A stretch of 64,000 bases of DNA. Source: an uncultured Flavobacteriaceae bacterium (lineage in GTDB: Bacteria > Bacteroidota > Bacteroidia > Flavobacteriales > Flavobacteriaceae). This document shows positions 2,004-38,810 of this stretch, piece by piece; within the stretch, counting starts at the first letter, position 1, and each line of letters starts with the position of its first letter. A program made the position numbers and the translations under genes. The stretch lies in the NCBI GenBank assembly GCA_947500445.1, contig CANMSB010000003.1:124001-188000 (forward strand). Direction: 5' to 3'. A model generated the notes under the pieces. It worked only from the letters and a program-made list of their open reading frames with translations, had not been told where the DNA came from and ran no database searches.

Positions 2004-2390
2004 ATGCGTAAAAAAGCGGGAAGAAAACCATTAGGGAAACATAAAAGAGAGCATACGGTTAACCTGCGATTCAATGATACCGAAATGAAGTCTATCAAAA
2101 TATTATTGGAATCCTACAATCTGGATTTCGAAAAAAGAGGGGTATTGGGGCCTTTTTTGAGGAGATTGATATTGCAGGATAAAGCGGTCGTCGAAACCCA
2201 GATTTCAGATTCAATTTCAAACCTGACCTATCAAATTAACAAAATCGGAACCAACATCAATCAACTGGTAAAAGTCGCCAATTACAAGAATTTGAGAAGT
2301 CCGAACTCAAAATTGGAACTGGAAATGCATAAATCAAATGAACTGATGGGAAAGATTTTTTGGCTTTTGGATGAAAAAAAGAATAGATGA
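2004..2390 (+). CDS. mobA: Relaxosome accessory protein (MobA/MobC-like)
   Basis: A 128-residue protein with a very basic N-terminus (MRKKAGRKPLGKHKREHTVN), a ribbon-helix-helix-like segment (LRFNDTEMKSIKILLESY) and the family signature around residues 73-90 (YQINKIGTNINQLVKVANY), typical of small mobilisation proteins that bind oriT and recruit the relaxase. It is followed by the relaxase with a four-base ATGA overlap, so the pair is translationally coupled. The symbol follows the Bacteroides conjugative transposon convention (mobA accessory, mobB relaxase, mobC coupling protein). Confidence 0.85.
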   Translation: MRKKAGRKPLGKHKREHTVNLRFNDTEMKSIKILLESYNLDFEKRGVLGPFLRRLILQDKAVVETQISDSISNLTYQINKIGTNINQLVKVANYKNLRSPNSKLELEMHKSNELMGKIFWLLDEKKNR

Positions 2391-12857: not shown

Positions 12858-13259
12858 TCAAATCTTCGCTTTAAACTCCGTCAAAGCGGCGACCACTGCA
12901 TGCTCCATTTCCTTATAGGAATCCTGAACATCGGACTGGTAGACCAAATTGTCCCCGATGTTCTGTTTGGGTATGAACTCGTTGTCGGGCAACAAGATCC
13001 ACATGGGATTATATCCCAGACTGTGGTAGAACAGAATGGCCTTCATGGTCAACACCGATATCGTGCCCCTTTCGATATTGATCAATGAATTGTAATCGAC
13101 ACCTAAACTTTCGGCCACATTTTTGGCGGAAAACCGACTAAAACGCTTGTCTTTGGCGTCATCGTTCTTTTTCAGTTCCAACCTGATTTTCTTCAACCGT
13201 TTACCGATAAACGTAAAATCCTTGATGGTAGCGTTCTGTAGTTCTTCTATATTTTTCAT
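12858..13259 (-). CDS. Helix-turn-helix regulator
   Basis: A 133-residue protein with a central Xre-like helix-turn-helix (FSAKNVAESLGVDYNSLINIE followed by an ERGTIS turn, roughly residues 44-68) and a short C-terminal helix. Its start overlaps the mobC stop by four bases (ATGA), and the DUF1016 nuclease follows 10 bases later. It likely controls the nuclease or the transfer operon; autoregulation is typical for such proteins but no operator is evident here because the promoter would be upstream of mobC or inside it. Confidence 0.78.
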   Translation of the reverse strand: MKNIEELQNATIKDFTFIGKRLKKIRLELKKNDDAKDKRFSRFSAKNVAESLGVDYNSLINIERGTISVLTMKAILFYHSLGYNPMWILLPDNEFIPKQNIGDNLVYQSDVQDSYKEMEHAVVAALTEFKAKI

Positions 13260-22002: not shown

Positions 22003-25000
22003 ATGAAATACTCCAAAAGAAAGTATCTGGACTTTATGGTCCGGACAATAGATGCACTTCATAGCCCGGAAACAGCGCCCCATTTTTTTATCAATAATCC
22101 CGGTTTCGGAAGCATTTTCGATATCCTAAAAAACAGTTCCTATCGCGCTGAATTCATTGAAAAACTTGATGAACATTTTGGTGCAGACTATTCACGGACC
22201 ATCATCAACAGTCTTAAAAGCGGGTCGCTCAATTCGTTCTACACGCCCGATCCCATTGTAAATGCGTTGACCGACTATGTAAAAAACCTAAGCCATTTTG
22301 AGCCTAAGACGATATTGGAGCCAAGTGCGGGCAATGGTACCTTTATACGTTCGTTGGCAAAAGTTTTCCCCGCTGCCAAATTTACCGCCTTTGAAAAGGA
22401 AATCCTGACGGTGCGCATTCTGGAGCATAATTTCAAGTTCAAAAAGAATGTCACGATTTATGGTGTTCCGTTTGAGAATCTTTCCCAGACCGATGCAACG
22501 AAAAAATATGATTTGGTCATTAGCAATATTCCTTTTGGAGCGAATAGAATTTTCGATCCAGAACTTATGGGACATCCGTTACGGACCGGGATTTCCAAAA
22601 ACATCCACTCCTATTTTATCCATAAAAGTCTTGAATGTCTTAAGCCATCCGGGATTTCGGTATTGCTATGCACCAAGAATTTTATGGACAAGACAAAATA
22701 TATCCCCATTAGGGAGCATTTATTAAAGCGCAATAATTTTATTGGCGGGGTTCGTTTGCCTGATTCCACTTTTGCCCAGGAAAACACGGCGATCGTAACC
22801 GATATTTTGGTTTTTCAAAACAACCAACAAATCGAAACCACCATTGAACAAATAAGTGTCAATGAATTATTTTCAAAAAGTTCGGAACGGCAGATAGGCG
22901 AAAATGCCGTTCAGATAAGCGATTACTTTTCTGAATTTCCCGAGCGGGTTCTTGGTGCGATCGAGGAAGGTGGAATGTACAATAATCTGGACTACACCGT
23001 CACAACCCAAAAGAATCTTGCCACCATAGCCTATGAAATAACCGATTCCCTAAGCAAATTCGTTATCCAGCCTAAAATGCAACGTGGGCAAAGTGTTCTG
23101 ACTGCGCTTGCCCCAACTGAAAAAGTTACAAAAACAAAAGTTCAAAGTACCGCGGATATTTCTTCAAACACCCACAAACTCAAACCGGGTAATCTGATTA
23201 TCAAACAACAAAAGGTTTACAAAATCGATGCCGAACAGCAGTTGGAACTGTTGGTTACGAAACCCAAGGAATTCGATAGGATTTCAAAAATCGTTGCGCT
23301 TCGCGACACCTATTTCAAGTTGCGAGATGCCCCTAAAGAGGAAGCCACCAAAATAAAGGACGAACTGGATTACCAATACGACGCCTTCCATTTTCAATAT
23401 GGACGTCTGAACGATAAACCAAATTATGCCTTTGCGACCTTGGATATACAAGGCCCCTTGATTTTGGGACTGGAAAAACCAAAAGACGGCGTTTTTATCA
23501 AGTCCGATATTTTCGATAGATCAATTCCTTTGAAAAAGGTCGAGAAAATCGCCGAGGAAATCCCAAAAAAGTTACCCCTTGAAGACGCTATCTACTATTC
23601 CCTGAACAAATACAATCGCATTGATATTCCGGCCCTGGTGGCTGCAACGCAAATAGCAGCGGAAGAGCTGATCAAAGATGCGTTGGACAGGCAACTTTTG
23701 TTCTTAAACCCAACGGAAAATAGATGGGAGTTGGCTCCCAGATTTATTTTCCTTTCGGGAACCATTTACAAAAAAATAAATGCCTATCGGAAAAATGATT
23801 TTGGGAAATTTCAATCCTATGTGGACAAATCCTATATCGACCGAACGGTTTTGTCCTTGGAAAAGGTCAGGCCGCCGATGACCCCTTTTGAGGATTTGGA
23901 CATCAAACTGCACGAGCCTTGGTTCCCCCTTGAATACACCCAGGCATTTATTTACGAAACCTATGGCACGACCGCTTATATCGCCTACAATGACAGTACA
24001 TCAAAGTACATGGTCAAAATTGAGAAGGCGGATTATGAGTATATCAAAAAATTCAGCGTTCAATCGGAACATCGGTACTACGGTTTCAAGGAAATTTTGG
24101 AAGGCGCATTGAATTCGACCATTCCCTATATATCAAAAGGCTCAAAACAATACAAGCGAACGGACAAGGCCAAAATGCAGGAAATACGCATCAAGTTCGA
24201 CTTGCTATATAAGGAATTCAATGCGTACATCATCGGCAAGCCGGAAATCAAAGACCGTCTGGAACGTATTTTTTACGATACCTATGATGCCCAAGTACAT
24301 CCCAAATATGACGGCGATTATCTTCGGTTCGAGGGGCTGCGTCATTTTATCCCTTACAAGAGCCAAAAGGACACCGTTGCCGGTATTCTTGTAAACCAAG
24401 GTCTTTTGGTCAATAAGGAAGTAGGTTTCGGCAAGACCTTGGATATGGCGTTAACGACCCAAAAACTGAAAGAACTTGGCCTGTCGAAAAAAACCTTGGT
24501 CATCGGTCTGCGTTCCACCGTCGTTCAATTGGAACGTGAATTACTGAACGCCTTCCCCATGATGAATCTACTCGTGGCGCATGATAAGGCCGTTAGCGGA
24601 TCGGCTAAAAGGAATGCCTTTTTCAAGAAGATCAAGAACGGCTCGCACGATGTGGTACTTATGAGCCATGATACGTTCAAGTTCATCCCGCAGTCCCCTG
24701 AAATTATCCACGAGATCATCTCGGAGGAATTGGCCAATCTCAACCGTGATCTGAGCGTCATCTACGATGATAAATACAATGTCGGAAAAAGGGTTTTGAA
24801 AGGGCTGGAGCAAAGAAGGGAGAATTTGAAAGCGACCTTGCAACAGGTGTTTTTCCAGATTAAAAGCAAACAGAGTGACATCGTGGATTTTGAACAAATG
24901 GGTTTCGAGCATATCATGGTCGATGAATCGCACAAGTTCAAGAACCTGATGTATACGACCCGCCACAATCGGGTTGCGGGGTTGAATACCTCACAAGGAT

Positions 25001-26916
25001 CCGAAAGGAGCAAAAATCTGTTGGTAGCCATACGGACTTTACAGCGTGCAAAAGCACGGGACTTTCAGACCACCTTTCTATCGGGTACGCCCATATCCAA
25101 TTCCATTACCGAGGTCTATGTACTGTTCAAGTATTTGATTCCGCATCGCATGGAACAGATGAACATAACATCCTTTGACCAATGGGCGCAGGTGTTCGCC
25201 AATAAGTCCTACGAATTCGAACCTACGGTTTCAGGTGATTATAAGGTGCGGGAACGCTTCCGGTCGTTCAAAAAAATGAAATTGCTGTCTTCCTTGTACA
25301 ACGAGATATCGATTATCGTCAACGGGGCTACACACCAAATCGATAGGCCTAAAATGCAATTGGATGTGCATACCCTAAAACCCACACCTGCACAGTTGGC
25401 CTATTTTGATCAAATAAAGGAGTTTCTAAGAACAGGGGATAGCAGCCTTTTGTATGGGAATAAAAATTATACCGAAGACCAAAAAAGTGCCCTGTCATTG
25501 ATTGCCTTGCACCACATGCGCAATGCTTCCATAGACCCCAGAATGCTGAGCCAAGACTTGGAAGATCCGGGCGAGGCCAAGTTGCGGACCATTGCATCCG
25601 AAGTCTATAAGACTTATACCGAAACAGCTTCTTTTAAGGGTACACAGGCCATCTTTTCAGACTTGGGCGTACCCAAGGAAAACTTTAATATTTATGATGA
25701 ACTAAAACGTATCCTGACGGAAGAATTCGGTATTCCCAATAATGAGGTGGTATATATCCATGATTTTAAGACGGATACAAAGCGACTGGAATGTTTTAAA
25801 GAGGTCAATGCGGGAAACTATCGGGTCATTATCGGTTCTACTGAAAAACTGGGTACTGGCACCAATATTCAGGAACGTTTGGTGCGTATCCATCATGTGG
25901 ATATTCCGTATCGGCCAACGGACATCGACCAACGCAACGGAAGGGGCGTGCGCAAGGGAAATGTGGGTGCCAAACAATACCATGACAATAAAGTGGTAGT
26001 GTCCTTTTATATTGTCGAGAACTGTACCGATGCCTTGATGCTCAATAACGTGAACATTAAAAAGAACTTCATCGAACAATTGACCAACGGCACCATTCAG
26101 TTCAATAGACTGGATATGGGGCCGGTCAACGATGAAGGTTCAATCGATTATAAAACCTTGCTGGCCGTTGCCAAAAACGACCCCCTATATCTCGAAAAGG
26201 AAGAACTAAGCAAAGAACTGGACGAACTGGAATTGGAAAAATCCATTTTCAAAAAAAATCGCTTGGATGCCAAAAACAATATATCGTTCTATGAAACCGA
26301 ACTTTCAAGAACCGATAAGACCATTACCAAACTTGAAAATGATATTCCACTTTGGAAAAGCATTGCTAATAAAAAAGATTACTTGTCAAAATTAAGTGAG
26401 GTCTTATCTCAACCTTCTTCCGACCCCATAATGCTGGGCGAACATCTTGAAATTCAGTTACAGGCTTTAAGAACAAAAAAGGGCGAACATGTCATCATCG
26501 CGATTGGGAATGCAAATTTGATGCTTCATGTTGAAGATGCGACCAACCACCAATTGCTGGTAGTTACTCCGAATGCTTCCTATGGCTATGGTTCCAAAAG
26601 AATCGTAAAGAATTGGCACAGTCTGGCCGATTACATGTATAATGCCTTGTCCAAAATCCCAAAGACATTAAATACCCAAAAAGAATTGGCAGTCGAATAT
26701 AAGAAATCCATTAAGGCCAATCAAAAAGTGTTGGAACTCCACTTTGACAAAACGGAAAAGTTGGAGTTGGTGCAAAAGAGGCTCGTTGAAATCAATGCAG
26801 ATCTGGATGAAAAATACGACGCGGAACCAGAGGAAAAAGAGGTAAAAAAAGAGACTTCGATTGCAAAAGCCGAATCATTGCGTGAGGTTCGTAAATCCCA
26901 AGGTGTTTCTTTATAA
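22003..26916 (+). CDS. Giant N6-adenine methylase-helicase fusion of the ICE
   Basis: A 1637-residue protein. The N-terminus carries a DNA methyltransferase fold: motif I EPSAGNGTF at 106-114 and motif IV NIPFG at 175-179, where most N6-adenine enzymes have NPPF/Y. A helicase follows, with GFGKT near 807, DESHKFKN near 974, SGTPISNS near 1028 and a motif VI-like QRNGRGVRKGN near 1308. A coiled-coil region (1390-1460) ends the protein. Such fusions are common on Bacteroidetes conjugative elements and may protect or remodel incoming DNA. Only the methylase's altered motif IV is odd; it may be inactive as a methylase. Confidence 0.85.
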   Translation: MKYSKRKYLDFMVRTIDALHSPETAPHFFINNPGFGSIFDILKNSSYRAEFIEKLDEHFGADYSRTIINSLKSGSLNSFYTPDPIVNALTDYVKNLSHFEPKTILEPSAGNGTFIRSLAKVFPAAKFTAFEKEILTVRILEHNFKFKKNVTIYGVPFENLSQTDATKKYDLVISNIPFGANRIFDPELMGHPLRTGISKNIHSYFIHKSLECLKPSGISVLLCTKNFMDKTKYIPIREHLLKRNNFIGGVRLPDSTFAQENTAIVTDILVFQNNQQIETTIEQISVNELFSKSSERQIGENAVQISDYFSEFPERVLGAIEEGGMYNNLDYTVTTQKNLATIAYEITDSLSKFVIQPKMQRGQSVLTALAPTEKVTKTKVQSTADISSNTHKLKPGNLIIKQQKVYKIDAEQQLELLVTKPKEFDRISKIVALRDTYFKLRDAPKEEATKIKDELDYQYDAFHFQYGRLNDKPNYAFATLDIQGPLILGLEKPKDGVFIKSDIFDRSIPLKKVEKIAEEIPKKLPLEDAIYYSLNKYNRIDIPALVAATQIAAEELIKDALDRQLLFLNPTENRWELAPRFIFLSGTIYKKINAYRKNDFGKFQSYVDKSYIDRTVLSLEKVRPPMTPFEDLDIKLHEPWFPLEYTQAFIYETYGTTAYIAYNDSTSKYMVKIEKADYEYIKKFSVQSEHRYYGFKEILEGALNSTIPYISKGSKQYKRTDKAKMQEIRIKFDLLYKEFNAYIIGKPEIKDRLERIFYDTYDAQVHPKYDGDYLRFEGLRHFIPYKSQKDTVAGILVNQGLLVNKEVGFGKTLDMALTTQKLKELGLSKKTLVIGLRSTVVQLERELLNAFPMMNLLVAHDKAVSGSAKRNAFFKKIKNGSHDVVLMSHDTFKFIPQSPEIIHEIISEELANLNRDLSVIYDDKYNVGKRVLKGLEQRRENLKATLQQVFFQIKSKQSDIVDFEQMGFEHIMVDESHKFKNLMYTTRHNRVAGLNTSQGSERSKNLLVAIRTLQRAKARDFQTTFLSGTPISNSITEVYVLFKYLIPHRMEQMNITSFDQWAQVFANKSYEFEPTVSGDYKVRERFRSFKKMKLLSSLYNEISIIVNGATHQIDRPKMQLDVHTLKPTPAQLAYFDQIKEFLRTGDSSLLYGNKNYTEDQKSALSLIALHHMRNASIDPRMLSQDLEDPGEAKLRTIASEVYKTYTETASFKGTQAIFSDLGVPKENFNIYDELKRILTEEFGIPNNEVVYIHDFKTDTKRLECFKEVNAGNYRVIIGSTEKLGTGTNIQERLVRIHHVDIPYRPTDIDQRNGRGVRKGNVGAKQYHDNKVVVSFYIVENCTDALMLNNVNIKKNFIEQLTNGTIQFNRLDMGPVNDEGSIDYKTLLAVAKNDPLYLEKEELSKELDELELEKSIFKKNRLDAKNNISFYETELSRTDKTITKLENDIPLWKSIANKKDYLSKLSEVLSQPSSDPIMLGEHLEIQLQALRTKKGEHVIIAIGNANLMLHVEDATNHQLLVVTPNASYGYGSKRIVKNWHSLADYMYNALSKIPKTLNTQKELAVEYKKSIKANQKVLELHFDKTEKLELVQKRLVEINADLDEKYDAEPEEKEVKKETSIAKAESLREVRKSQGVSL

Positions 26917-26922
26917 GTTTTT

Positions 26923-27062
26923 GGGCGTTGGCCGGGCTATCCGCTATATCGCCCTTGCGGACCCCAAGGTTTCGTAAGTCTTGAAAGAGCTCCGCTGTCG
27001 CTTTTCAAGACAACGAACCCTAAGGGGGCCACTGCGGTCGATGCCGCTGGTATCCCTAACGC
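26923..27062. repeat. 140-bp imperfect palindrome between backbone and photosensory cargo
   Basis: The segment starts GGGCGTTGG and ends CCCTAACGC, with an inner stem GTCTTGAAA (26978-26986) / TTTCAAGAC (27003-27011) that extends outward through GGTTTCG and CGAACC. It resembles, from memory, GGGCGTT...AACGC repeats scattered through Bacteroidetes mobile DNA. The gap 26917-27246 holds nothing else recognisable except an inverted pair AAGAACAAA / TTTTGTTCTT at about 27122-27171 and a repeated AAGTATCTTT. Confidence 0.55.
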
Positions 27063-27246
27063 TAAAAATTTTAAATATAGGGTTAGCTCTGATTTTCCCG
27101 TGCCGAAAAACCTTCTTTTAAAAGAACAAACTTGTAAAATTGAAAACCCAATTTAGTATCGGTTTTGTTCTTATAAAGTATCTTTAGGGAAAATCCTTTG
27201 GTGAAATTTAAGTATCTTTCCTTTTCGTAATATCCTAATAGCTAAT

Positions 27247-29430
27247 TTGGCCTCTAGAAAATCTAAATTATATCCCGGAGAAGTCACCTTGACGAATTGT
27301 GACCTTGAGCCCATACACCTTATAAATCGCTCCCAGTCTCATGGAGTACTACTAATATGCAATCCTTCGGACAAGCTAATTACAGGCTTTAGTTCGAATG
27401 GCCCAGACCTGTTTCACGAACTGGAGAGATCCGAACTGCCCCTAAAAATCAATCAGATTCTTGACGACAAGATAATTCATGCGATTTTCGAGGATATACC
27501 AAGTGAGGGCGCAAACTTTAAAAAATGTTTGATAGGCAACGTCCCGCACGTTGTAATCTATCACTGTTCCGGCGAAACGCTAATACTTGAGTTCGAGCCA
27601 TTGAACGATGATATAGATCCTGTACTACAACAAATCGAGCTGTCCCATATTTTCTCGGTCCTCAATCGTTCCACAAGAGTACAGGACATGTGCGATAAAG
27701 CGGCGAAGCTCATACGCGACTTTGCTGGCTACGATCGTGTAATGATCTACAAATTCGATGAGCATTGGAACGGAGAGGTTGTCTCTGAAAGTAAGCAGGC
27801 GAAGTTAGAATCCTGGTTGGGCCTGCGGTATCCGGCGACCGATATACCCAGTCAGGCGCGGGCATTGTTCCTCCGGCAAGGGGTACGAATCATTTCGGAC
27901 GTTTCGGACCAGACCCAAAGTTTGAAAAATCTCGGTAACGAAGATATCGACTTTAGCCTTAGCGAACTTAGGGCGGTATCTCCCATCCATATAGAATATC
28001 TCACCAACATGAAGGTCGCGGCGACCATGACGGCGGCCATCGTATTCGATGAAGATTTATGGGGCCTAGTGGCCTGCCATCATTATAGCCCAAGGTTTAT
28101 CGATTATTTCAAAAGGATGTCCTGTAAGTTCCTTACCCAGGTCTTTTCCAACCAACTTGGTCTAAGGTCCACAAATACCAATTTGGAAAAGATGAACCGT
28201 TCCAATACGGTTCGCGCCAAGATAATCGAGAGGATTAGTGCGCATCGAAATATACAAGTAGGACTTTCTAAGGCGTCCGGCGATCTGTTGTCATTGAACG
28301 AGTCCAGTGGTGGAGCGGTGTACTTCGATGACGAACTTTCCACCTTCGGAGATGCTCCCGACGAAATCAAGATACTCAACCTATTTAATTGGCTTAGAAA
28401 ATCAAGTCCGGGAGATACTTTTCTTACGGAAAACTTGGAAGGTGTATTCAGTAAGGGGGCAGAAATCAAATCGAACGTCTCCGGTGTCCTTTGTGTCTTT
28501 CTTTCCTCAGAACGAAACGATGCCATCCTATGGTTTAAACCTGAGCGGATCAAAATTGTCGAGTGGGGCGGGAATCCAGAAAAATCGGTCAACGAGGAAG
28601 GAGGTCGCCTTAGTCCCCGTAAATCCTTTGATGCTTGGAAAGCTGAACAATCAGGGCATTCGGAACCTTGGGAAGATTACGAAATCGCCTCTGCGAAAGC
28701 ACTTAAAGATCACCTTTCGGATATTATTCTAAAGAAATACGATGAAATGTTGAGACTGAACAAGAAACTGGAATCCGTGAATAACGAACTGGAGTCTTTC
28801 AGTTACAGTGTTTCCCATGACCTGCGGGCGCCGCTCCGGGGAATTTCGGGATTCTCCCAGATCTTACTTGAAAAGTATTACGATGCTTTGGACGATTTCG
28901 GCAAGAGCGCCTTGGAGACCATCGCCAGTTCAAGTACCAAAATGAACAGTCTAATAGATGATATCCTATCCTTTTCGGGACTGGGGAAGAAAAGTACCGA
29001 ACTTTCCACATTTGAGATGGTGGATCTGGTAAAGGAGGTGTTGGAATATCTCAAGGCGAATGAATTCTACAAAAGCACATCGATAACCGTCGAAAAGGAG
29101 CTCGGTAGCTTGACAGGAGATAGATCAATGATTTTCCAACTTATGAACAATTTACTTAGCAATGCACTAAAGTACTCTGCTAAGCAGTCAAATCCCGAGG
29201 TTCATATCGGACGGGAGCAAAAGGCTTTCTATGTAAGGGACAATGGAATAGGTTTTGATAAAGCCCACTCCAAGAAAATTTTCGGAGTGTTCAAGAGATT
29301 GGTCAGTGACGAATATGAAGGTTCTGGTATCGGACTGGCCATATCAAAACGGGTAATCGAAAAACACCATGGGCGTATATGGGTCGAGAGCGAACCCGGA
29401 AAAGGCACTACCTTTTATTTTACAATTTGA
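27247..29430 (+). CDS. bphP: Bacteriophytochrome histidine kinase
   Basis: A 727-residue red/far-red photoreceptor kinase. PAS: LTNCDLEPIHL carries Cys18, the usual biliverdin attachment residue. GAF: LGLRYPATDIPSQAR with Asp199, SPIHIEYLTNM with His248, and ACHH at 276-279, all chromophore-pocket residues of canonical bacteriophytochromes. PHY: a tongue with WGGNP and PRKSF (about 440-461). Kinase: phospho-acceptor His524 in SVSHDLRAP, N-box LLSNAL near 636-641, G-boxes DNGIGF (665-670) and GSGIGLA (692-698). The start is TTG at 27247; a stop lies in frame at 27202. A response regulator and heme oxygenase follow at once. Confidence 0.93.
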   Translation: MASRKSKLYPGEVTLTNCDLEPIHLINRSQSHGVLLICNPSDKLITGFSSNGPDLFHELERSELPLKINQILDDKIIHAIFEDIPSEGANFKKCLIGNVPHVVIYHCSGETLILEFEPLNDDIDPVLQQIELSHIFSVLNRSTRVQDMCDKAAKLIRDFAGYDRVMIYKFDEHWNGEVVSESKQAKLESWLGLRYPATDIPSQARALFLRQGVRIISDVSDQTQSLKNLGNEDIDFSLSELRAVSPIHIEYLTNMKVAATMTAAIVFDEDLWGLVACHHYSPRFIDYFKRMSCKFLTQVFSNQLGLRSTNTNLEKMNRSNTVRAKIIERISAHRNIQVGLSKASGDLLSLNESSGGAVYFDDELSTFGDAPDEIKILNLFNWLRKSSPGDTFLTENLEGVFSKGAEIKSNVSGVLCVFLSSERNDAILWFKPERIKIVEWGGNPEKSVNEEGGRLSPRKSFDAWKAEQSGHSEPWEDYEIASAKALKDHLSDIILKKYDEMLRLNKKLESVNNELESFSYSVSHDLRAPLRGISGFSQILLEKYYDALDDFGKSALETIASSSTKMNSLIDDILSFSGLGKKSTELSTFEMVDLVKEVLEYLKANEFYKSTSITVEKELGSLTGDRSMIFQLMNNLLSNALKYSAKQSNPEVHIGREQKAFYVRDNGIGFDKAHSKKIFGVFKRLVSDEYEGSGIGLAISKRVIEKHHGRIWVESEPGKGTTFYFTI

Positions 29431-29440
29431 TAAGCTGCCA

Positions 29441-29854
29441 ATGCAAAGACCCTATATACTCTCCATTGAAGACGACAAGAACGATATAGCCCTAATGCAG
29501 TTTGCCATGTCGGAACTCGATTCGACATATCACATGGAATTTCTTACAGACGGTATCTCGGCAACAGCTTTTTTCAATTCCGATGCTTTTAAGAACAACC
29601 CTCCGACATTGATTCTATTGGATATCAACCTTCCCGGAATCAACGGTTTGGAAGTTTTGAAAAAATATCGAGGGACATCTTCGCAGCCACAAGTCCCTGT
29701 GGTGGTTATGAGCTCCTCGGACAGGGACGACGAGATAAGGCAGAGCTACTCATTGGGGGCCAATAGCTATATCGAAAAACCCAGGGACCTGAACGATCTG
29801 AGGGGCAAGTTGGAATTGATGACCAAATATTGGATGGAGACCAATAAATTATGA
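29441..29854 (+). CDS. Single-domain response regulator, phytochrome partner
   Basis: A 137-residue receiver from the ATG at 29441 (MQRPYILSIEDD), ten bases after the kinase stop; an upstream in-frame start at 29369 would overlap the kinase. Acidic pocket Asp11/Asp12, phosphorylation site Asp61 in LLDINLPG, Ser91 and Lys113 (IEKP) are all in place. It has no output domain, as in Rcp1-type partners of phytochromes, so it would act by binding another protein. Its stop overlaps the start of the heme oxygenase gene by four bases. Confidence 0.9.
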   Translation: MQRPYILSIEDDKNDIALMQFAMSELDSTYHMEFLTDGISATAFFNSDAFKNNPPTLILLDINLPGINGLEVLKKYRGTSSQPQVPVVVMSSSDRDDEIRQSYSLGANSYIEKPRDLNDLRGKLELMTKYWMETNKL

Positions 29855-30420
29855 TGGCAATGGAGCTAACGGAATATTTGAAGAAGCACACAATGGAGAT
29901 TCATCGGGAAACCGAGCGGAAAAGTATCGCAAGGAATATCATGAACGGCCGGATTACGATGGAGGACTATGGAATTCATCTAAAGCGGTTACATTATGCA
30001 TATAGCACGGTCGAGGCCGCTTGTGAGGATTTTGTTCAGGATCGTCCACACCATCCCGTTCACGAATTTCTCGATACGGGAAATACAGCTCTTCTAAGAA
30101 AGGACATCCATTCCCTTGACGCTACCTATGCTTATCAGGCAAAGAGCTCTTATAAAATATCTTCCTTATCGGAACTGGTCGGTGCACTGTATGTAACGCT
30201 TGGATCCGGATTAGGCGGTCTTTTGATAGCAAAACGCTTGAAATCATGTCATGGGCTAACATTGGAAAAACATAATTTTTATTCGGGTAAAAATAACAAG
30301 GTCCTAGAAAATTGGAAAGATTTCAAAAAAATCATAAATTCCAGTGACACTCTTGTTGAAAAGAGAGATCAAGTCCTTGGGTCCGCCATAAGTACCTTCG
30401 GACTTTTCGCATCGAAGTAA
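29851..30420 (+). CDS. bphO: Biliverdin-producing heme oxygenase (BphO-type)
   Basis: A 189-residue heme oxygenase that would open heme to biliverdin, the chromophore needed by the phytochrome upstream. The proximal haem ligand is His18 in KKHTMEIHRETE, and the distal-helix glycine motif is GSGLGGLL near 129-136, both as in bacterial BphO. Tight coupling to the response regulator (ATGA overlap) makes a three-gene light-sensing operon: kinase, receiver, pigment synthesis. Start: the first of two nearby ATG codons is used here; the second is three codons later. Confidence 0.88.
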   Translation: MMAMELTEYLKKHTMEIHRETERKSIARNIMNGRITMEDYGIHLKRLHYAYSTVEAACEDFVQDRPHHPVHEFLDTGNTALLRKDIHSLDATYAYQAKSSYKISSLSELVGALYVTLGSGLGGLLIAKRLKSCHGLTLEKHNFYSGKNNKVLENWKDFKKIINSSDTLVEKRDQVLGSAISTFGLFASK

Positions 30421-30539
30421 CGGTTTAGAAGATTTTTGATTAGTCAATAGACTATATAATTAATTGAAAACAAGCATAATATACATCGATTAATCATTAT
30501 CTTTAACTCAATTGCGATTTTCAGAACAATATTGTTGAA

Positions 30540-31601
30540 ATGGGGAAAACTATTTTTATCGAGGATGATACCACCGGAGGATTAATGAGGAAGCTGGCCC
30601 TTGAGTTAGGAACCGACCTCATTGAGAAGGATTACGAGTACATCTGTAGTTTTCCCCAAGAGATGGGCTCTGGGTATATCAAAGTTTCGAGCTTTCCCAA
30701 CGATATCACTGTTACGGAGATTTCTGGAATCTTTTCCCGCGAACTTATTTTGGGATTAAAGAAAAAGGACGATTATTCCATCAAGATGACCTTCAACCTG
30801 TCCAATCCCATAGGATATCGGGTAAGCTCCGAAGACACCTTGGAAATGCACCGTTTTGATAGTACATTCCACGCCGCCGCACAGGGCGAAAGCGGATACC
30901 CATCATATCTATTGGATAAAAATACTCCTATTTCTCTTTTTATATTGAACATCCACGGAAATGAATTCCTGAAGAAATTGGAGGAGAACAGCTCTAACGG
31001 GGAGTTGGGCATAACGGTATTCATCAAGCCTACCGGCTCTAAAAAAAGTCTTGTTTCGAAAAGTAGCTTTACCCTTAAATTGCACGAGTTGATTAAAAAC
31101 TTTATTTCCAACGATTATGCCGGCCCAATGCGTTTTATTTACAAAGAGGCTAGGGTGAACGAAATATTGATAGAGCGTATTCGACAATACATAGATGATC
31201 TAGGTCGGAACAAGATTCCGTTACTTAGGAAATCCACTTTACGTGCAATAGAGGAGGCCACCCGTATCATAGCTGAAAATTTGGATACCAAAAAGACCAT
31301 CAAGGACATTGCCAGCGAGGTAGGTCTTTCACAGCATACACTTCAGTCGGGGTTTCAACATCAGTTCGGGTGTTCCGTAAACGAGTTTATTACCAACCTC
31401 AAATTAAAGAAAGGTGCGGAGCTATTGGAAAGGTCGGATTTGAATATAAGCGAGATAACCTACGAGCTCGGTATAAATAGTAAAAGCTACTTTGCAAAAC
31501 GATTTTACGAGCGATACGGTATCAATCCCAGTGAGTACAGAAAATTATTCAGGGCTGGTAGCGGAACTATGGAATTGTCCCAAACAAATGGAGATAAGTA
31601 A
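30540..31601 (+). CDS. AraC-family regulator of the photosensory island
   Basis: A 353-residue protein with an N-terminal domain without a recognised sensor name and a C-terminal AraC double helix-turn-helix (about 236-338; IKDIASEVGLSQHTLQSGFQ, then ISEITYELGINSKSYFAKRF). The N-terminal domain shares layout with that of the AraC-BLUF protein at 33093-34550 (a G-x-G-x-I strand, then a strand with an ExSxxFSRE-like turn), so they look like paralogues. No BLUF is attached here. A receiver protein follows after six bases. TATCTTTA at 30499 resembles a -7 element but no -33 was found. Confidence 0.85.
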   Translation: MGKTIFIEDDTTGGLMRKLALELGTDLIEKDYEYICSFPQEMGSGYIKVSSFPNDITVTEISGIFSRELILGLKKKDDYSIKMTFNLSNPIGYRVSSEDTLEMHRFDSTFHAAAQGESGYPSYLLDKNTPISLFILNIHGNEFLKKLEENSSNGELGITVFIKPTGSKKSLVSKSSFTLKLHELIKNFISNDYAGPMRFIYKEARVNEILIERIRQYIDDLGRNKIPLLRKSTLRAIEEATRIIAENLDTKKTIKDIASEVGLSQHTLQSGFQHQFGCSVNEFITNLKLKKGAELLERSDLNISEITYELGINSKSYFAKRFYERYGINPSEYRKLFRAGSGTMELSQTNGDK

Positions 31602-31607
31602 ATACAT

Positions 31608-32183
31608 ATGGAAATCAAGATACTAATAGTAGAAGATGTGCCAACGGATGCAAAATTTTTGGAACTGGAGGTGCTAAAGTACAATGCGGACGCGGACATA
31701 CAAGTTACCAATTCCATTGAGGGTTTGAAAGCCTCGTTGAACGACTTTCGACCCAATGTAATATTAAGCGATTTCGACCTACGAAGTTTTACGGCATTCG
31801 AGGTTCTGGAAATCCTTAAGAATCATACTACAAGTATCCCTTGCATAATCGTCACCGGGGTGATAAACGATGAGGAGACAGTTGCTCGATTGGTATTGAA
31901 CGGTGCAGTCGGTTTTATTCAAAAGAAGGACCTCTCACATATAAGGCTCAGTCTTCGCAGAGTCCTCGAAAATCTCGACCATTCTTTCTCCAGCAATTTC
32001 GAGACGTACGAAGGAAAATTGAAAATGTTGTTCAAATTGCGCGAAATGCAGTTCGATTTGAAGCGGTTATCCTTGGACTTGCCAGAATTGGGCGAATTTC
32101 AGGGCGAGTTCTCAACCTTTGCAGAAGAGATGATGATTGACATTCAGAAAAGCTATGAAGGCCTCCCGCTTTTAAAAAGATAG
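31608..32183 (+). CDS. Receiver-domain protein with helical extension
   Basis: A 191-residue protein: a receiver domain (acidic pair Glu9-Asp10, phospho-acceptor Asp55 in LSDFDL, lysine in GFIQKKD) followed by about 60 residues predicted helical with no HTH or enzyme motif. It lies six bases after the AraC gene and so is probably co-transcribed. Its likely donor is the phytochrome kinase, which has no other kinase gene nearby; that link is inference. Confidence 0.85.
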   Translation: MEIKILIVEDVPTDAKFLELEVLKYNADADIQVTNSIEGLKASLNDFRPNVILSDFDLRSFTAFEVLEILKNHTTSIPCIIVTGVINDEETVARLVLNGAVGFIQKKDLSHIRLSLRRVLENLDHSFSSNFETYEGKLKMLFKLREMQFDLKRLSLDLPELGEFQGEFSTFAEEMMIDIQKSYEGLPLLKR

Positions 32184-32199
32184 GCCAAAAACCTATATA

Positions 32200-32919
32200 T
32201 CACGACTTAAAGAAAAAAGAGTTCCACTTAGGCTGAGCCTGTTCATCCGATGAAGATTCGAACATACTGGCATAGGTTATACCGTTAGCAAAAAGATCCG
32301 TGGGAATACTGTTGGCGACCAATTTAGCTACAAGGTTCTCATGCTGGTAAATGCCCAGACCATAGTCGTTCCTGTTCAACCAGTTGTCGACGCAAACATC
32401 TTCAACGATGACGGGAATCTGGGTAGATGAGTTCATGAAAGGTTTAATACATTCAGATCTGGTAGTCAATAAAAGGGCAACCGTCAAGAATCCGTCGTCC
32501 GTTCGGTTGCATATACCTGCAAGATAGAAGGGGACCTGACCTGGCAAGCCTAAATGATACGTATAACAATCCCCTCTACTTACATAGGAGGTATAAAATC
32601 CCGTCACCGGTATCAAACAACGGCGATCGACCAGCGAGTCTGCCCACCAGAGATCTTCTGAGATATTTCTTTCCTCATAGAATAGGGAAGGTGCATCCTT
32701 TTGAAAAGTGTTCCATTGCCTACCATAGTTTTCCGGTAATAGTCCCCACAGTGCAGGCTGCAGGGTATGGCGTTCGTCTCTAGTGATTGCCAAGACGTTG
32801 CTTTCTTCGGTACCATTAATAATATCGCATGGACTGTATAGATGTGGATGCTTTATTTGAACGGAAAATATATTTTCCAATTCCTCAGCGCCGGCGGTAC
32901 AGCTTAAATTCTGAAGCAT
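32200..32919 (-). CDS. SRAP-fold protein with degenerate active site
   Basis: A 239-residue relative of SOS response-associated peptidases (YedK/HMCES), which crosslink to abasic sites in single-stranded DNA. The fold is recognisable (PALWGLLPENYG, then RRCLIPVTGFY, then IPVIVEDVCVDNWL), but the catalytic set is gone: position 2 is Leu instead of Cys (normal start MCGR), the GFYEW glutamate is Thr110, and the histidine of the H-x-x-M/I-P-V motif is replaced in SSTQIPV. Such a protein should not form the usual DNA crosslink. It is convergent with the receiver gene and lies 173 bases from the AraC-BLUF gene. Confidence 0.75.
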   Translation of the reverse strand: MLQNLSCTAGAEELENIFSVQIKHPHLYSPCDIINGTEESNVLAITRDERHTLQPALWGLLPENYGRQWNTFQKDAPSLFYEERNISEDLWWADSLVDRRCLIPVTGFYTSYVSRGDCYTYHLGLPGQVPFYLAGICNRTDDGFLTVALLLTTRSECIKPFMNSSTQIPVIVEDVCVDNWLNRNDYGLGIYQHENLVAKLVANSIPTDLFANGITYASMFESSSDEQAQPKWNSFFFKS

Positions 32920-33092
32920 AGGGAATTATTTTAATGTAATTACGCAATTCTGCAATCGTTTTTGGAACAGTATTAATCTGAATGAGAACACTATTGCTAC
33001 GGTTTCAAAACTAAATCCTTGGTTAGACTTAGCTATTCAGTTGACAATCATGAAACTAACATCCTTCTTGAACGTTCAAAATCGTAGCTCCT

Positions 33093-34550
33093 TTATAGCC
33101 TGCTTTCAGCATTTGCTAATAATACATTTCGTACCTTTTTCCATAGACTTTCCGAGACCATTGCACCATTTTGGATGTCACCGACCAAAGGTCCTAGGTC
33201 AATCTCGTTCGTATTCCCCTCGGCCTTCGTCCTTAACAGTCCCTTATCGCTGAGCAGCGCCAATGACCAATCTGCGAAATGTCTTTTTGGCTTGAATCCT
33301 TTATAGATAATATTAACGTCGCTGTGCCGCCCATCCCTATGGATGTTATCATAAAGTTGCAGAATATCCTTTTTCGGCCCTTCGATAATCTGGAAGAAAA
33401 TTTTTCTATGATAAATTAAACAACCAGTAATGTCAAAGTTAGGATTCATACTCCTTGCGGTTGTTACCAAATCCTCGATATCCTCCTCCAGTATCGTACT
33501 ATTGGCCATTGATCTATACGTAATTTCATACAAGGTCGTACCATTATCGTGGGATTCCTTATAAGAACTCGGAAGCACCCCGAAGTAATCGAAGAAAATC
33601 TTTGAAAAATAACTTCTACTGGAATATCCTACCCTGTAGCAGACTTCGCTTACGGACAGATCCGTGCTATGTATCAACTCTTTGGCAAATTCCATTCGCA
33701 GGCTTGAAATGTATTCATTTACGCTATATCCATATAGAAATCGCATACCGGTCTGCAATTTCTTCGGCGACATGCCAAAATGCTTTGAAATATCCTCTAT
33801 GGTAACCTTGCCGTTCAAATTGCTTTGCACGTAATCGCCCAAATTCGTCAGTTTGGAAAGTTCCTTTTTGGTAAGGTTGGGCTGAAAACTGTTGGTCTGA
33901 TTGTTATGGTCATGAGCCTCGATTTGTGAGGCTAGCATGTTCATTACCGCACCTTCAGTTAGCAATTGCCCGACTACATCGGTCCGTTTATTGCGCACGA
34001 TTATTCTTGCATACGTTCCCGTCCTGGCATCTATATTGCCGAAATAACGGTAAGACGAATCACCTTCGAAAGATCCGAACAGGTCACTGAGATTGGAGGC
34101 CAGTCGCCTTTTTGACTTGGCACGGCTTTTGGCCAGGAGCACGGGATTTACGATAAGGTAACAGCATTCATATTTAGTTCCTCCGGGAAGAACGAATTCC
34201 GACTCCTTTGAGGGTTCGCCGGCAATAATGAAATTCTGTCCTTGGCTGATTTCACGATATTCTTCCTCCCCAAGGAACTTTTGCAACTGGTGACCTTTGA
34301 CGTTATAGCCAAAATAGTATGGTCGTTGATCAGAGAACAAAAGGTTAAACTTATACTCGTTCACAAAAGTTACGTCGTATATCCACGCAGTAAGTCCGGG
34401 AATCATTTCATAGAGCCTGATGGTACCTCTACCAAATTTATTGTCAAAAGTCAATTTGGTCGCGCCATGGCTCTCCATGAGTTCCGCATCCAGATGGACC
34501 GCGAATTGACGCAGCATATCCAAGGGGCTTCTCTCATATATATTGTCCAT
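33093..34550 (-). CDS. AraC-BLUF fusion, predicted blue-light-responsive regulator
   Basis: A 485-residue protein with three parts: an N-terminal domain like that of the AraC regulator at 30540, an AraC double helix-turn-helix (about 229-332; IEDISKHFGMSPKKLQTGM, then VSEVCYRVGYSSRSYFSKI), and a C-terminal BLUF domain (340-434). The flavin-site residues are complete: Tyr345, Asn369, Gln387 and Trp428, with spacings 24, 18 and 41 that equal those of AppA (Tyr21, Asn45, Gln63, Trp104). The position matching AppA Met106 is Leu430. Light on the flavin could directly alter DNA binding, a one-component photoregulator. The 50 residues after the BLUF match nothing known to me. Confidence 0.88.
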   Translation of the reverse strand: MDNIYERSPLDMLRQFAVHLDAELMESHGATKLTFDNKFGRGTIRLYEMIPGLTAWIYDVTFVNEYKFNLLFSDQRPYYFGYNVKGHQLQKFLGEEEYREISQGQNFIIAGEPSKESEFVLPGGTKYECCYLIVNPVLLAKSRAKSKRRLASNLSDLFGSFEGDSSYRYFGNIDARTGTYARIIVRNKRTDVVGQLLTEGAVMNMLASQIEAHDHNNQTNSFQPNLTKKELSKLTNLGDYVQSNLNGKVTIEDISKHFGMSPKKLQTGMRFLYGYSVNEYISSLRMEFAKELIHSTDLSVSEVCYRVGYSSRSYFSKIFFDYFGVLPSSYKESHDNGTTLYEITYRSMANSTILEEDIEDLVTTARSMNPNFDITGCLIYHRKIFFQIIEGPKKDILQLYDNIHRDGRHSDVNIIYKGFKPKRHFADWSLALLSDKGLLRTKAEGNTNEIDLGPLVGDIQNGAMVSESLWKKVRNVLLANAESRL

Positions 34551-35011
34551 TCTTTTTTAGGGCAAATTTAAATTACGAGGTAAGTTGGAGAGAACACTAT
34601 TGAATCGGATTATGACAATTTTGGTGCAGTTTCGTTTTTAATTAAACCAGCGAGCTAGGTATGGCCGATTCTTTATTCTCTTTTCAACACTAATAATTAA
34701 AACGATTTTTCAAATAGGCAAACGAGCAGCATGCTCTAGCTTATGCTAAAATCTTTAGAATTAATGTGTCAATGGAAAAGATTTACAGTTCTGGAAATCG
34801 GCCTTTTTAAGAAACCACTTTTATAAATCGTTGAACCTTTCCTCAGAGTGTCCCAAACTTGGTCTTTTTTAGTAGTATCGTTAATTCACCTTTTACGGCA
34901 CTGTTTTTCACTAAATCCTTAATTTATAAATATTAAAAGCGCTTAGGCTAACCAAATCGAAGCCTAGCTTTAAAATACACAGCTAAAAAATTGATTTGAG
35001 TCATAGAATCC

Positions 35012-35034
35012 AGCGCCCTATCGGGCGCTTTTTT
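35012..35034 (+). terminator. Intrinsic terminator without an upstream gene
   Basis: AGCGCCC (35012-35018) and GGGCGCT (35023-35029) form a perfect 7-bp stem around TATC, followed by a run of T. No plus-strand coding gene ends within several hundred bases upstream, since the neighbouring gene is on the minus strand. Confidence 0.8.
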
Positions 35035-35129
35035 GTGGATAGGGGGAAGGAAGAAAAGGGCGGATTTTCGCCTGATTTTACGAGGATTCCCACAGGTACG
35101 GGCGTATCTTGGAAGAGAGTTAAGGAAGG

Positions 35130-35166: not shown

Positions 35167-35203
35167 TTTAAATAATTTTTTTAGAACTATAAATACCGTT
35201 ACA

Positions 35204-35692
35204 ATGACAGACTTTTTTTCAACATTACGGCAAACGGGTATCGAACAATTTGGCATCAGTATTTCCTTTAATGAGGATACTGTAAACGTATCCGTATTGC
35301 CCAAATCGAGTGCCAAGGACAAGGCACTCCAATCCTTAAAACCACTTACCATGAGAGGGAATATACAGGAAGTGGACGAGAAGTTTTTTCAAATTCTTCA
35401 AAAACCAATGGACAAAACAAAAACCCTTTTTCGCAACACCGTTGCTTTTGAACAGACCCTAGCCAAGACCGAACAAAAGACGCAACAGGCAAAAAAGAAG
35501 AAAGAATCCGCTTCCAAAAAGGCGACCGAGTTAAAGCAACTTTTGAAGGCAACCGACTTTAACCCCATGACCGACCACAAAAAGGCAACGGACATCGCCA
35601 ATGATATTTTGAAGATCGACCCGAACCATAAGGATGCCAAAAAGGTCGTAAAGGATATGAAGGTTTATGAATCCCCTAAACTATTTACATAA
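35204..35692 (+). CDS. PRTRC system protein E
   Basis: A 162-residue protein from the ATG at 35204 (MTDFFSTLRQTGIEQFGIS); the longer open frame upstream runs through the hairpin and is not coding. The N-terminal domain with FNEDTVNVSVLPKSSAKDK and LKPLTMRGN matches PRTRC protein E, followed by a charged, lysine-rich coiled stretch. PRTRC genes are conserved together on plasmids and ICEs; their biochemical job is unknown. The stop overlaps the start of protein C by one base. Confidence 0.85.
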   Translation: MTDFFSTLRQTGIEQFGISISFNEDTVNVSVLPKSSAKDKALQSLKPLTMRGNIQEVDEKFFQILQKPMDKTKTLFRNTVAFEQTLAKTEQKTQQAKKKKESASKKATELKQLLKATDFNPMTDHKKATDIANDILKIDPNHKDAKKVVKDMKVYESPKLFT

Positions 35693-36986: not shown

Positions 36987-37694
36987 ATGGAACACATAAC
37001 CATTTTACAAGCCGACGAACACTATCTACCCAAGTTTGCCATCGTCGGTTATTCCCAAGATCAAGACTATTATAACCAAGGACATTACTTTTCATATCAC
37101 AACATCGTTGGAGAGAAATTAACAGCAGGAATGCCTTTGACCAAGGATACTGCCCGAAACATCTTTAACTGTTTGGAAGGCAATCTGATAAAGTTCCGTT
37201 TTAAGGGAATGTTGCCTAAAAACCTTATCTACTTCGATTTCAAGGGAAGCCTTCAACTGGTCTGGTATATACATCCAAAACAGCATACCATGTATTTCGA
37301 TACCAATACAGGAATCGTTTCGGGAAAATACCCATTGCCAAAGTTGCTGTTTAAACTTGAAGGAAATACTATTAGAGTGTTTGCTCTTCTTCGAAAGGAT
37401 AGTCTGAACGAATCGACCCCGATTTATAACGCACCGCTACTCAATGTAAATGGGCATGGCAAAGTCTGTATGGGTAGTGCTTCAATGGAGTATGACGGTT
37501 TTGAATATTACGAGGACATCATGGGTTTTGTGGAACAGCAATTTTTTCGCTCGGTCTTTACGGCAACCCATCACAACCGCATCGCAAACGGAAACATTGT
37601 GGCTATTATGAAACAAAATTTGGAGAAACCATTCTTTGACGATGGATTGTTGATCGCAAACAAACTGACCTTAAAAGACCTTTATGAAGACTAG
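36987..37694 (+). CDS. PRTRC system protein B
   Basis: A 235-residue protein with the PRTRC B pattern: MLPKNLIYFDFKGSLQLVWY, then IHPKQHTMYFD and the late segment YNAPLLNVNGHGKVCMGSA. Function is unknown. It starts two bases after the preceding gene and overlaps the ThiF gene by 11 bases, so all PRTRC genes here form a single operon. Confidence 0.9.
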   Translation: MEHITILQADEHYLPKFAIVGYSQDQDYYNQGHYFSYHNIVGEKLTAGMPLTKDTARNIFNCLEGNLIKFRFKGMLPKNLIYFDFKGSLQLVWYIHPKQHTMYFDTNTGIVSGKYPLPKLLFKLEGNTIRVFALLRKDSLNESTPIYNAPLLNVNGHGKVCMGSASMEYDGFEYYEDIMGFVEQQFFRSVFTATHHNRIANGNIVAIMKQNLEKPFFDDGLLIANKLTLKDLYED

Positions 37695-38463
37695 GATACA
37701 CTTTGCGCCTAACTACTTCTATAACCCGACACACCCCATTACGATTGCTTTGATCGGAGTTGGGGGAACGGGTTCATTACTATTGGCAAGATTGGCTAGA
37801 ATCGATTATGCGCTACGTCAAGTAGGACATCCAGGACTGCACATCATCGCCTATGATTCCGATATAGTCGAACCAAACAATATAGGGAGACAATTGTACA
37901 CTAGTGCCGATGTTGGGGAGTACAAAGTGGTCAATGCCGTCAACAAGGTTAACATGGCATTTGGTCTGCAATGGCAAGGTATTCCGATGGACGCTCTCCC
38001 TGATGGCGAAGATATTAGGGCAAATATCATAATCACTTGTGTTGACAATGCCAATTTTCGGGTACAGCTTGCAAAATCGCTACAATATCCGTACAAAGGT
38101 TCTGAATACAATACTATGTTTTATTGGTTGGATTTGGGCAACAGTAGAAATACAGGGCAATTTGTTCTAGGAACGCTTTTCAATGAGGAACGTAAAATAG
38201 AAAGAGAGGACTTTGAACAGGTCGAAAAACTCAAAAATATCATCGATTTCTTCCCCGATTTGGATGCCTATGACACACTTACTTTACAAGGCGCAGGATG
38301 CACTTATTCCGATAAACTAAATGCACAGTCACTGTTCATTAACGACGTCTTGGTCGCCCATGCTTCCGACTGTTTGTTTCGTTTGTTATACCACAAACAG
38401 ATTCAAAAACACGGGGCATTCGTGAATCTAGAATCAGGCAGGGTAAATTCAATCTTGGTCTAA
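37684..38463 (+). CDS. PRTRC ThiF-family protein (E1-like)
   Basis: A 259-residue protein with the nucleotide-binding glycine motif of the ThiF/MoeB/E1 superfamily, LIGVGGTGSLLLARLAR at about 20-36, and the downstream YDSDIVEPNNIGRQLY segment containing the conserved Asp and Arg. E1-like proteins adenylate a small protein's C-terminus; whether the PRTRC set does so is unknown. It is the last gene of the ICE operon, ending about 180 bases before the tRNA gene. No PRTRC A or ParB gene is visible in the window. Confidence 0.88.
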   Translation: MKTRIHFAPNYFYNPTHPITIALIGVGGTGSLLLARLARIDYALRQVGHPGLHIIAYDSDIVEPNNIGRQLYTSADVGEYKVVNAVNKVNMAFGLQWQGIPMDALPDGEDIRANIIITCVDNANFRVQLAKSLQYPYKGSEYNTMFYWLDLGNSRNTGQFVLGTLFNEERKIEREDFEQVEKLKNIIDFFPDLDAYDTLTLQGAGCTYSDKLNAQSLFINDVLVAHASDCLFRLLYHKQIQKHGAFVNLESGRVNSILV

Positions 38464-38631: not shown

Positions 38632-38646
38632 TATCAAAAAAATCAG

Positions 38647-38720
38647 TGATCGCGACAGGATTCGAACCTGTGACCGTCCGCTTAGAAGGCGGATGCTCTA
38701 TCCAGCTGAGCTACGCGACC
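38647..38720 (-). tRNA. tRNA-Arg (anticodon TCT)
   Basis: A complete 74-nt tRNA read on the minus strand from GGTCGCG at 38720 to CGCGATCA at 38647. The acceptor stem pairs GGTCGCG with CGCGATC (one G-U), the anticodon arm is TCCGC-CTTCTAA-GCGGA, giving TCT, and the T-loop GTTCGAATC is present. The ICE genes lie on its 3' side, the usual integration pattern for tyrosine-recombinase elements. Confidence 0.97.
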
Positions 38721-38760: not shown

Positions 38761-38810
38761 CGGCCACCTGCTTAGAAGGCAGATGCTCTATCCAGCTGAG
38801 CTACGCGACC
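38761..38810 (-). pseudogene. Truncated tRNA-Arg (5' 50 nt only)
   Basis: Read on the minus strand from 38810, the first 29 bases are identical to the complete tRNA-Arg, and the TTCTAA anticodon loop is kept. The anticodon stem differs by a compensatory pair (CTGC/GCAG instead of CCGC/GCGG), so it descends from an independent functional copy. Homology ends after the anticodon arm; no T-arm or acceptor 3' strand follows. It lies 40 bases upstream of the intact gene on the same transcript. CGAAGTTA at 38829-38836 gives TAACTTCG on the minus strand, a plausible -7 element. Confidence 0.85.

Follow-up and report, generated by a model that had tools for sequence, protein, structure and literature searches.

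What would a pair of photoreceptors, one of the red/far-red type and one of the blue-light type, regulate when they are found inside a conjugative element? The question is raised by a run of seven genes in a 64,000-nucleotide stretch (hereafter the window) of contig CANMSB010000003.1, from an uncultured Flavobacteriaceae bacterium (GCA_947500445.1). In our numbering, the window corresponds to G000:C3:124001-188000. An earlier note, made from the letters of this DNA alone, had described there a photosensory island giving light control over something, possibly the transfer of the element or a host trait. We conclude, with a probability of roughly 0.55, that these genes form an input module for two colours of light, borne as swappable cargo on an integrative and conjugative element (ICE), with AraC-family outputs that act mainly on host genes and not on ICE transfer.

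The cassette is 7.8 kb long and comprises seven genes, the first five on the plus strand and the last two, encoding an SRAP-like protein and an AraC-BLUF protein, on the minus strand (Table 1). All the genes named previously between 27247 and 34550 (a phytochrome kinase BphP, two receivers RR1 and RR2, a heme oxygenase BphO, an AraC gene and AraC-BLUF) are present and were confirmed by Pfam, with the receivers, heme oxygenase, AraC domains and BLUF all exceeding the cut-offs. That list had left out the SRAP-domain gene, located between RR2 and AraC-BLUF. The cassette holds only regulators and no other output genes, as had been noted. The Pfam scan found no DNA-binding domain in RR1 or RR2, and an Rfam search for non-coding RNAs in 26500-39000 returned a tRNA alone. 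Since the RR1 homologue in a second genome of the genus (G002; 137 amino acids) aligns from residue 25 of the window's open reading frame (ORF), RR1 most likely starts at 29441 (137 amino acids) and not at 29369. Base composition as a sign of foreign origin was discarded as uninformative: the G+C content of the cassette (0.422) is close to that of three of the four backbone blocks (0.404-0.418) and of the right-hand host stretch (0.414), the integrase block being at 0.348.

To define the limits of the cassette, we compared the window with related ICEs. Matches to the methylase-helicase on its left border were found in 12 of 397 family genomes, the window's own included, at E <= 1e-100. The closest relative, G423, belongs to another genus and shares four blocks with the ICE of the window at 94% DNA identity: the integrase; tra; mob to methylase-helicase; and PRTRC to attR. 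Homology stops at 27062 and restarts at 34866, just outside the photosensory genes, and G423 carries about 39 kb of other genes in this gap. Because a 94%-identical ICE lacks the cassette, with homology breaking at these two positions, we regard the cassette as swappable cargo in a hotspot between the methylase-helicase and PRTRC genes. The gap was fully covered in four of the eleven other relatives (G423, G269, G057 and G428) and partly in G343; G428 and G343 are only 29-36% identical to the window in the methylase-helicase. In G269 it contains an SRAP with Cys2, an ADP-ribosylglycohydrolase, a UvrD-like helicase and a TIR protein, and it measures only 231 bp in G057 and about 0.7 kb in G428, being nearly empty in both. 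According to these sequence comparisons, the assignment of the cassette as ICE cargo is well supported.

The ICE extends beyond the left edge of the window (G000:C3:78448-162768), with its right end at window position 38768. Two copies of the core CTGCTTAGAAGG, at C3:78448 and 162768, are separated by 84,320 bp; when the host flanks are put back together, a perfect 75-nt tRNA-Arg(TCT) results, that is, a restorable empty site. Besides, a 45-bp stretch with the 3' half of tRNA-Arg recurs (44/45) at C3:78415, while the core together with the 5' half of the tRNA is present in two copies genome-wide, both within the window. The ICE splits the host tRNA-Arg in the anticodon region and replaces it with an intact one of its own, which must have been brought by the element because one anticodon-stem pair differs from the split host copy. 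Next to attL lies a tyrosine integrase gene with three Pfam domains (C3:78621-79856). Regarding the type IV secretion system (T4SS), we found TraG P-loop, TraM, DUF4138 and TrbL (barely above its cut-off) genes, plus a coupling protein; for TraG, the scan used the homologue from G423, which is 94% identical to the portion lying within the window. By its anatomy (ends, integrase, T4SS and coupling protein), the element is an ICE; it also has a relaxase-like gene, whose MobB match lies well below the cut-off. Together with the hotspot comparison, the att sites, integrase and transfer genes bear out the earlier placement of the cassette as cargo of a conjugative element.

We then examined the two sensory halves separately. 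BphP has the domain order PAS_2-GAF-PHY-HisKA-HATPase, and its Cys18, Asp199 and His248, which we take to be chromophore-pocket residues of bacteriophytochromes, align with identical residues in a bacteriophytochrome of known structure, as the earlier note had assigned them. It thus combines the sequence features that define a bacteriophytochrome: PAS-GAF-PHY, an N-terminal Cys, the pocket Asp and His, and a histidine kinase. Its start is ambiguous, with in-frame TTG codons at 27247 or 27289; the G002 ORF starts about nine residues in, where the window offers no start codon. BphP matches at E <= 1e-20 were obtained in 27 of 397 family genomes (G002 is absent among the matches listed and was probably outside that draw). 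From the 28 BphP places, the window's own included, we analyzed the 16-kb neighbourhoods of 20 of the 27 others. RR2 and BphO are present in 18 of them and RR1 in eight, and in 17 a large ORF of 1,194-1,339 amino acids with a BphP-like kinase end adjoins BphP; the one of these that was domain-scanned showed the arrangement CheB-CheR-PAS-HisKA-HATPase. Neither window 22003-35692 nor the G002 block with its flanking DNA contained such a large kinase. Sequence comparison therefore relates the phytochrome half of the cassette (BphP, RR1, BphO and RR2) to a flavobacterial phytochrome operon, with the same BphP family and with the receivers and the heme oxygenase encoded in a single run. It differs from this operon in the loss of the large kinase beside BphP, in the insertion of AraC1 between BphO and RR2, in the long branches of RR2 and BphO, and in being ICE cargo. 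In the trees, the BphPs of the window and G002 are sisters among the operon BphPs (100/100), the stem carrying their two RR2s measures 4.1 changes per column, and the BphO branches are long and weakly supported (86/70). With 31-32% identity to the others, BphO is divergent, and one histidine column of its alignment is conserved across 21/21 rows. The long RR2 and BphO branches would fit a change of partner, and equally a long-branch artefact.

The blue-light half consists of AraC-BLUF. Its BLUF domain (PF04940, 91 bits) carries Tyr345, Asn369, Gln387 and Trp428, presumably the residues that matter in BLUF domains, and all four are invariant in 11 of 11 aligned homologues, that of the window included. 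This part has the sequence features of a BLUF photoreceptor, and its fold matched AppA and PixD chains in Foldseek. The AlphaFold2 model, built from 11 sequences, gave a mean predicted local distance difference test score of 80.2 and presents strands at 23-134, helices, an AraC helix-turn-helix (HTH) at about 228-335, BLUF from 340 and C-terminal helices; we read the predicted N-terminal barrel as cupin-like. Foldseek matches of the whole model were AraC-family regulators and BLUF domains, and the template modelling scores to whole AraC proteins were low (0.34-0.40 by target), so the placement of the domains in the model is unreliable. A search of genome contigs identified 12 AraC-BLUF loci, 10 of them full length, and 3 of 395 phylum genomes, the window's own included, gave AraC-BLUF matches at E <= 1e-80; the contig search (two peptide patterns) and the phylum search may both miss such proteins. 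Altogether we examined 14 AraC-BLUF loci, including G009, G201, G500 and the window, some of them with short flanks (L060, L064 and L065), and the BphP module was present in two, the window and G002. One genome, G201, bears two AraC-BLUF genes in tandem (L158 9402-12500). In a midpoint-rooted AraC tree of 37 rows, the BLUF-bearing proteins form one group (89/88), and the AraC1 proteins of the window and G002 belong to an eight-row group with the chromosomal AraC-a (100/100). The fusion probably arose once, from an AraC gene with a short BLUF gene at its side, the arrangement seen in the chromosomal locus described below.

G002 contains all seven genes in identical order, with identities to the window of 57% for BphP, 57% for RR1, 31% for BphO, 52% for AraC1, 61% for RR2, 47% for the SRAP-like protein and 48% for AraC-BLUF. 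The methylase-helicase gave no match there at E <= 1e-20 and PRTRC none within the 120 kb examined; hence, the block is not exclusive to the ICE. The earlier note had held that fixation of the genes in the chromosomes of relatives lacking the ICE would count against it: the block does stand in a genome without matches to these ICE marker genes, yet this BphP occurs in only two of the ten genomes of the genus. The G002 block starts 1.3 kb past a region syntenic with G000:C1:39-75 kb, which contains AraC-a, AraC-b, SRAP, AraC-c and a short BLUF gene. Looking at this chromosomal locus in five of the ten genomes (G000, G001, G002, G003 and G009), we detected AraC and SRAP clusters in all five and a BLUF match in three, with none in the G003 and G009 stretches. 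Pfam domains around the G000 locus include PLD, GH3, glycoside hydrolase 3, efflux proteins, topoisomerase IB, DUF2254, DUF2652, FMN reductase, aldehyde dehydrogenase and DUF2807, and the G002 surroundings include DJ-1/PfpI. From these neighbours we infer a stress-type locus.

The SRAP-like protein points to the same locus. Although it shares the Pfam SRAP domain with YedK and HMCES, these keep Cys2 and the active-site Glu, whereas in all seven SRAP-like proteins (window, G002 block and five chromosomal loci) the Cys after the shared Met is absent and Thr replaces the Glu. In three of the seven ORFs further in-frame starts lie upstream, the true N-terminus being assumed in this comparison. The two SRAPs that G423 and G269 carry in this hotspot keep both residues, and the solved relative 2f20, a weak match (E 0.0035) from residue 54 on, has the same Glu-to-Thr change. 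In the available text of PMC9436759, YedK crosslinking depends mainly on Cys2 and Glu105. With Cys2 and the active-site Glu lost, the cassette protein, which we call pseudo-SRAP, is not expected to carry out the usual abasic-site chemistry and may have a partner role instead. In sequence it is closer to the SRAP of the chromosomal locus than to canonical SRAPs; like AraC1, it resembles a component of that locus. Members of this subfamily adjoin AraC regulators at window 32200-32919, L035, L039, L040, L044, L046 and L047.

How would such a module work? BphO would supply biliverdin, which BphP would bind via Cys18, and red or far-red light would then set the kinase activity of BphP toward RR1 and RR2, presumably by phosphotransfer. 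RR2 could hand this state by contact to AraC1, the product of the neighbouring gene, with pseudo-SRAP as a non-catalytic partner. AraC-BLUF, in turn, would be a one-component blue-light transcription factor in which BLUF, located behind the DNA-binding domain, alters DNA binding or the dimer state. Finally, the AraC outputs would have their main targets among the chromosomal genes of the host, most plausibly around the related AraC/SRAP/BLUF locus. Only tentatively do we go one step further and propose a transferable cassette that re-wires the recipient's chromosomal regulon to two light colours, its AraC and pseudo-SRAP outputs being paralogues of the recipient's regulators and pseudo-SRAP a non-enzymatic part of the switch.

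We searched for an operator by comparing aligned upstream regions from five genomes of the genus. Upstream of the chromosomal AraC b, all five largely keep a direct repeat of GTTAAT spaced by 21 bp, whose copy at L035 12260-12287 is a candidate AraC operator. Genome-wide we counted 15 matches vs 9 in the reversed control, and in L035 two, one of them perfect, vs 4.3 expected. A regulon based on this repeat is not claimed.

Several observations weigh against a host-directed light module. The repeat occurs at chance level in the window (14 matches vs 16.9 expected), and the repeat search yielded no target gene or operator for the AraC proteins of the cassette. The RR2-AraC1 and pseudo-SRAP contacts are read from gene order alone. 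The full seven-gene block was found in two genomes only, and in G002 past mobility of the block is possible, with a tyrosine-recombinase-like ORF (judged by eye) about 9 kb away and a weak coupling-protein match (24%) about 70 kb away. A distant backbone relative, G219 (30%), has a BphP match, on a contig other than that of its methylase-helicase. Lastly, AraC-BLUF is found without BphP at 12 of 14 loci, so that the two colours do not have to work together.

This last observation also favours an explanation in which two unrelated photosensors travel together toward separate targets, with no joint output. No AraC match was found within 6.5 kb on each side of BphP in any of the 20 phytochrome-operon neighbourhoods, which speaks for it as well. 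We nevertheless hold it to be rather doubtful: AraC1 is located within the phytochrome gene run, and the order of the seven genes, AraC1 and pseudo-SRAP included, has been kept in two genomes whose BphPs are 57% identical.

One could also argue that, being carried by an ICE, the cassette controls it, so that two-colour light gates excision or transfer via the AraC proteins or via contacts of the phytochrome with other proteins. There is a precedent for BLUF near transfer genes: in the available text of PMC9020721, a BLUF gene of Acinetobacter nosocomialis lies near putative conjugal genes and an AraC gene. We consider this explanation improbable in view of the backbone relatives. When the whole genomes of five of them (G423, G269, G057, G428 and G343) were searched, BphP was found in none, with a query that did match in the family and genus genomes. 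Full-length AraC-BLUF was likewise absent from the five, the single match spanning model positions 217-391 with three stops, and one of these backbones is 94% identical to that of the window. Elsewhere the hotspot is filled with other genes or with nothing, and the co-occurrence of BphP, BphO and AraC-BLUF between methylase-helicase and PRTRC, suggested earlier as a check, was seen in none of the four relatives G423, G269, G057 and G428. Besides, G002 carries the same block in a genome without these ICE marker genes. From the two possibilities offered by the earlier note, ICE transfer is thus disfavoured and the regulation of host genes favoured. Since a 94%-identical ICE without the cassette exists, experiments can tell the effect of the cassette on transfer apart from its effect on the host. 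That the genes are decaying passengers without light function, as the divergent, long-branched BphO might suggest, is hardly credible given that all frames are open, the pocket residues are kept and the base composition is like that of most of the backbone.

To contextualize the host-directed module, we compared it with known systems. Among 72,556 plasmid records, 131 had a BphP match, and 21 of these 131 are predicted to be conjugative, so phytochromes on mobile DNA are nothing new in themselves; at 80% coverage, AraC-BLUF was found on none of the 1,055 plasmid records with a match. The Leisingera caerulea plasmid NZ_CP081079.1 also carries a phytochrome and a heme oxygenase, but it is typed as non-mobilizable, its kinase is annotated as HWE-type and there is no AraC-BLUF near. 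On this plasmid (L160), BphO-BphP adjoins, by annotation, genes for CsbD, a mechanosensitive channel and a PLD N-terminal domain, perhaps another phytochrome beside stress-type genes. A link between phytochromes and conjugation is known from Agp1 and Agp2 of Agrobacterium fabrum, which control conjugation, with no evidence for transcriptional control in the available text of PMC8117939; these act on transfer, whereas the phytochrome of the cassette is ICE cargo alongside AraC genes. With respect to AraC-BLUF, available text (PMC9614035, PMC8766309) describes BLADE (Romano et al. 2021), an engineered, blue-light-responsive LOV-AraC that likewise fuses a flavin sensor to the AraC DNA-binding domain. 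BLADE is synthetic and uses LOV, while AraC-BLUF is natural, with BLUF behind a complete two-domain AraC protein. In Acinetobacter, the affinity of BlsA for effectors including AraC-like regulators is changed by contact, according to the available text of a review (PMC8508746); BlsA is a separate short BLUF protein and AraC-BLUF a single polypeptide. In the open-access literature we found, among the matches listed, no description of a natural AraC-BLUF protein or of an ICE with phytochrome cargo, and the available text of the review PMC4844311 gives HTH partners for LOV proteins with no mention of AraC. The novelty lies in the combination of known kinds: a phytochrome operon, a BLUF regulator and ICE cargo. 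The locus exemplifies light sensing borne by an ICE, in a defined slot whose cargo can be swapped, and light-responsive regulation may in this way be passed between bacteria. AraC-BLUF looks like a natural counterpart of the engineered blue-light-controlled AraC tool, and pseudo-SRAP points to an AraC-adjacent subfamily of SRAP-like proteins without the residues of the known chemistry.

Table 1. Features of the cassette and the ICE, in window coordinates.
Feature	Position	Strand	Basis
MobC/NikA-like mobilisation protein, ICE backbone	2004..2390	+	Pfam MobC 27.8 bits, cut-off 23.2
MobB-type relaxase-like protein	2387..4678	+	NCBIfam Bacteroid_MobB E 1.4e-37; 130 bits vs cut-off 400
MobC/TraG-type coupling protein	13256..15751	-	Pfam T4SS-DNA_transf and TraG-D_C above cut-off; NCBIfam Bacteroid_MobC E 9.6e-174, below cut-off
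Methylase-helicase, left hotspot border	22003..26916	+	Pfam Eco57I, SNF2, Helicase_C; 94% identical in G423 ICE
Photosensory cargo cassette	27063..34865		DNA absent from 94%-identical G423 ICE backbone
BphP, biliverdin-type phytochrome histidine kinase	27247..29430	+	Pfam; PDB bacteriophytochrome E 2e-113
RR1, single-domain receiver	29441..29854	+	Pfam Response_reg; start moved from 29369
BphO, heme oxygenase	29851..30420	+	Pfam Heme_oxygenase PF01126, 48 bits
AraC1, AraC-family regulator, chromosomal AraC-a group	30540..31601	+	Pfam HTH_18; tree
RR2, receiver with C-terminal extension	31608..32183	+	Pfam Response_reg only
SRAP-like protein (pseudo-SRAP), without Cys2 and active-site Glu	32200..32919	-	Pfam SRAP 51 bits; alignments
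AraC-BLUF: beta-barrel (cupin-like), AraC HTH, C-terminal BLUF	33093..34550	-	Pfam, AlphaFold2, Foldseek
PRTRC protein E, right hotspot border	35204..35692	+	Pfam PRTRC_E; homologues align from ORF residue 58, setting start
PRTRC protein B-like	36987..37694	+	Pfam Prok-E2_D; NCBIfam PRTRC_B below cut-off
PRTRC ThiF protein	37684..38463	+	NCBIfam PRTRC_ThiF 197 bits, cut-off 145
Complete tRNA-Arg(TCT) carried by ICE	38646..38720	-	ARAGORN, Rfam, att analysis
attR core (38768-38779) and remaining 5' half of host tRNA-Arg	38768..38810	-	attL partner G000:C3:78448

The rest of the ICE bears further genes. At the left end of the G423 ICE (start of L144, G423:C6 about 1505.7 kb), the match to attL of the window's ICE begins only at the end of the core, and the 3' half of the tRNA seen in that attL is missing, though the right ends of both elements are alike. 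To the left of the window, a second cargo at L048 3883-14212 (G000:C3:87.9-98.2 kb) comprises genes for a porin, a fumarate-reductase-like flavoprotein and iron-sulfur subunit, an asparaginase, an aspartase/fumarase-type lyase, a DcuA/DcuB transporter and a glutamate symporter, which by gene content looks like an asparagine/aspartate-to-fumarate respiration set. Further cargo at L049 2477-9059 includes an RND pump gene and an outer-membrane efflux protein. A YhcG/DUF1016 nuclease-family gene is found at window 11858-12847 and is 96% identical in the G423 ICE.

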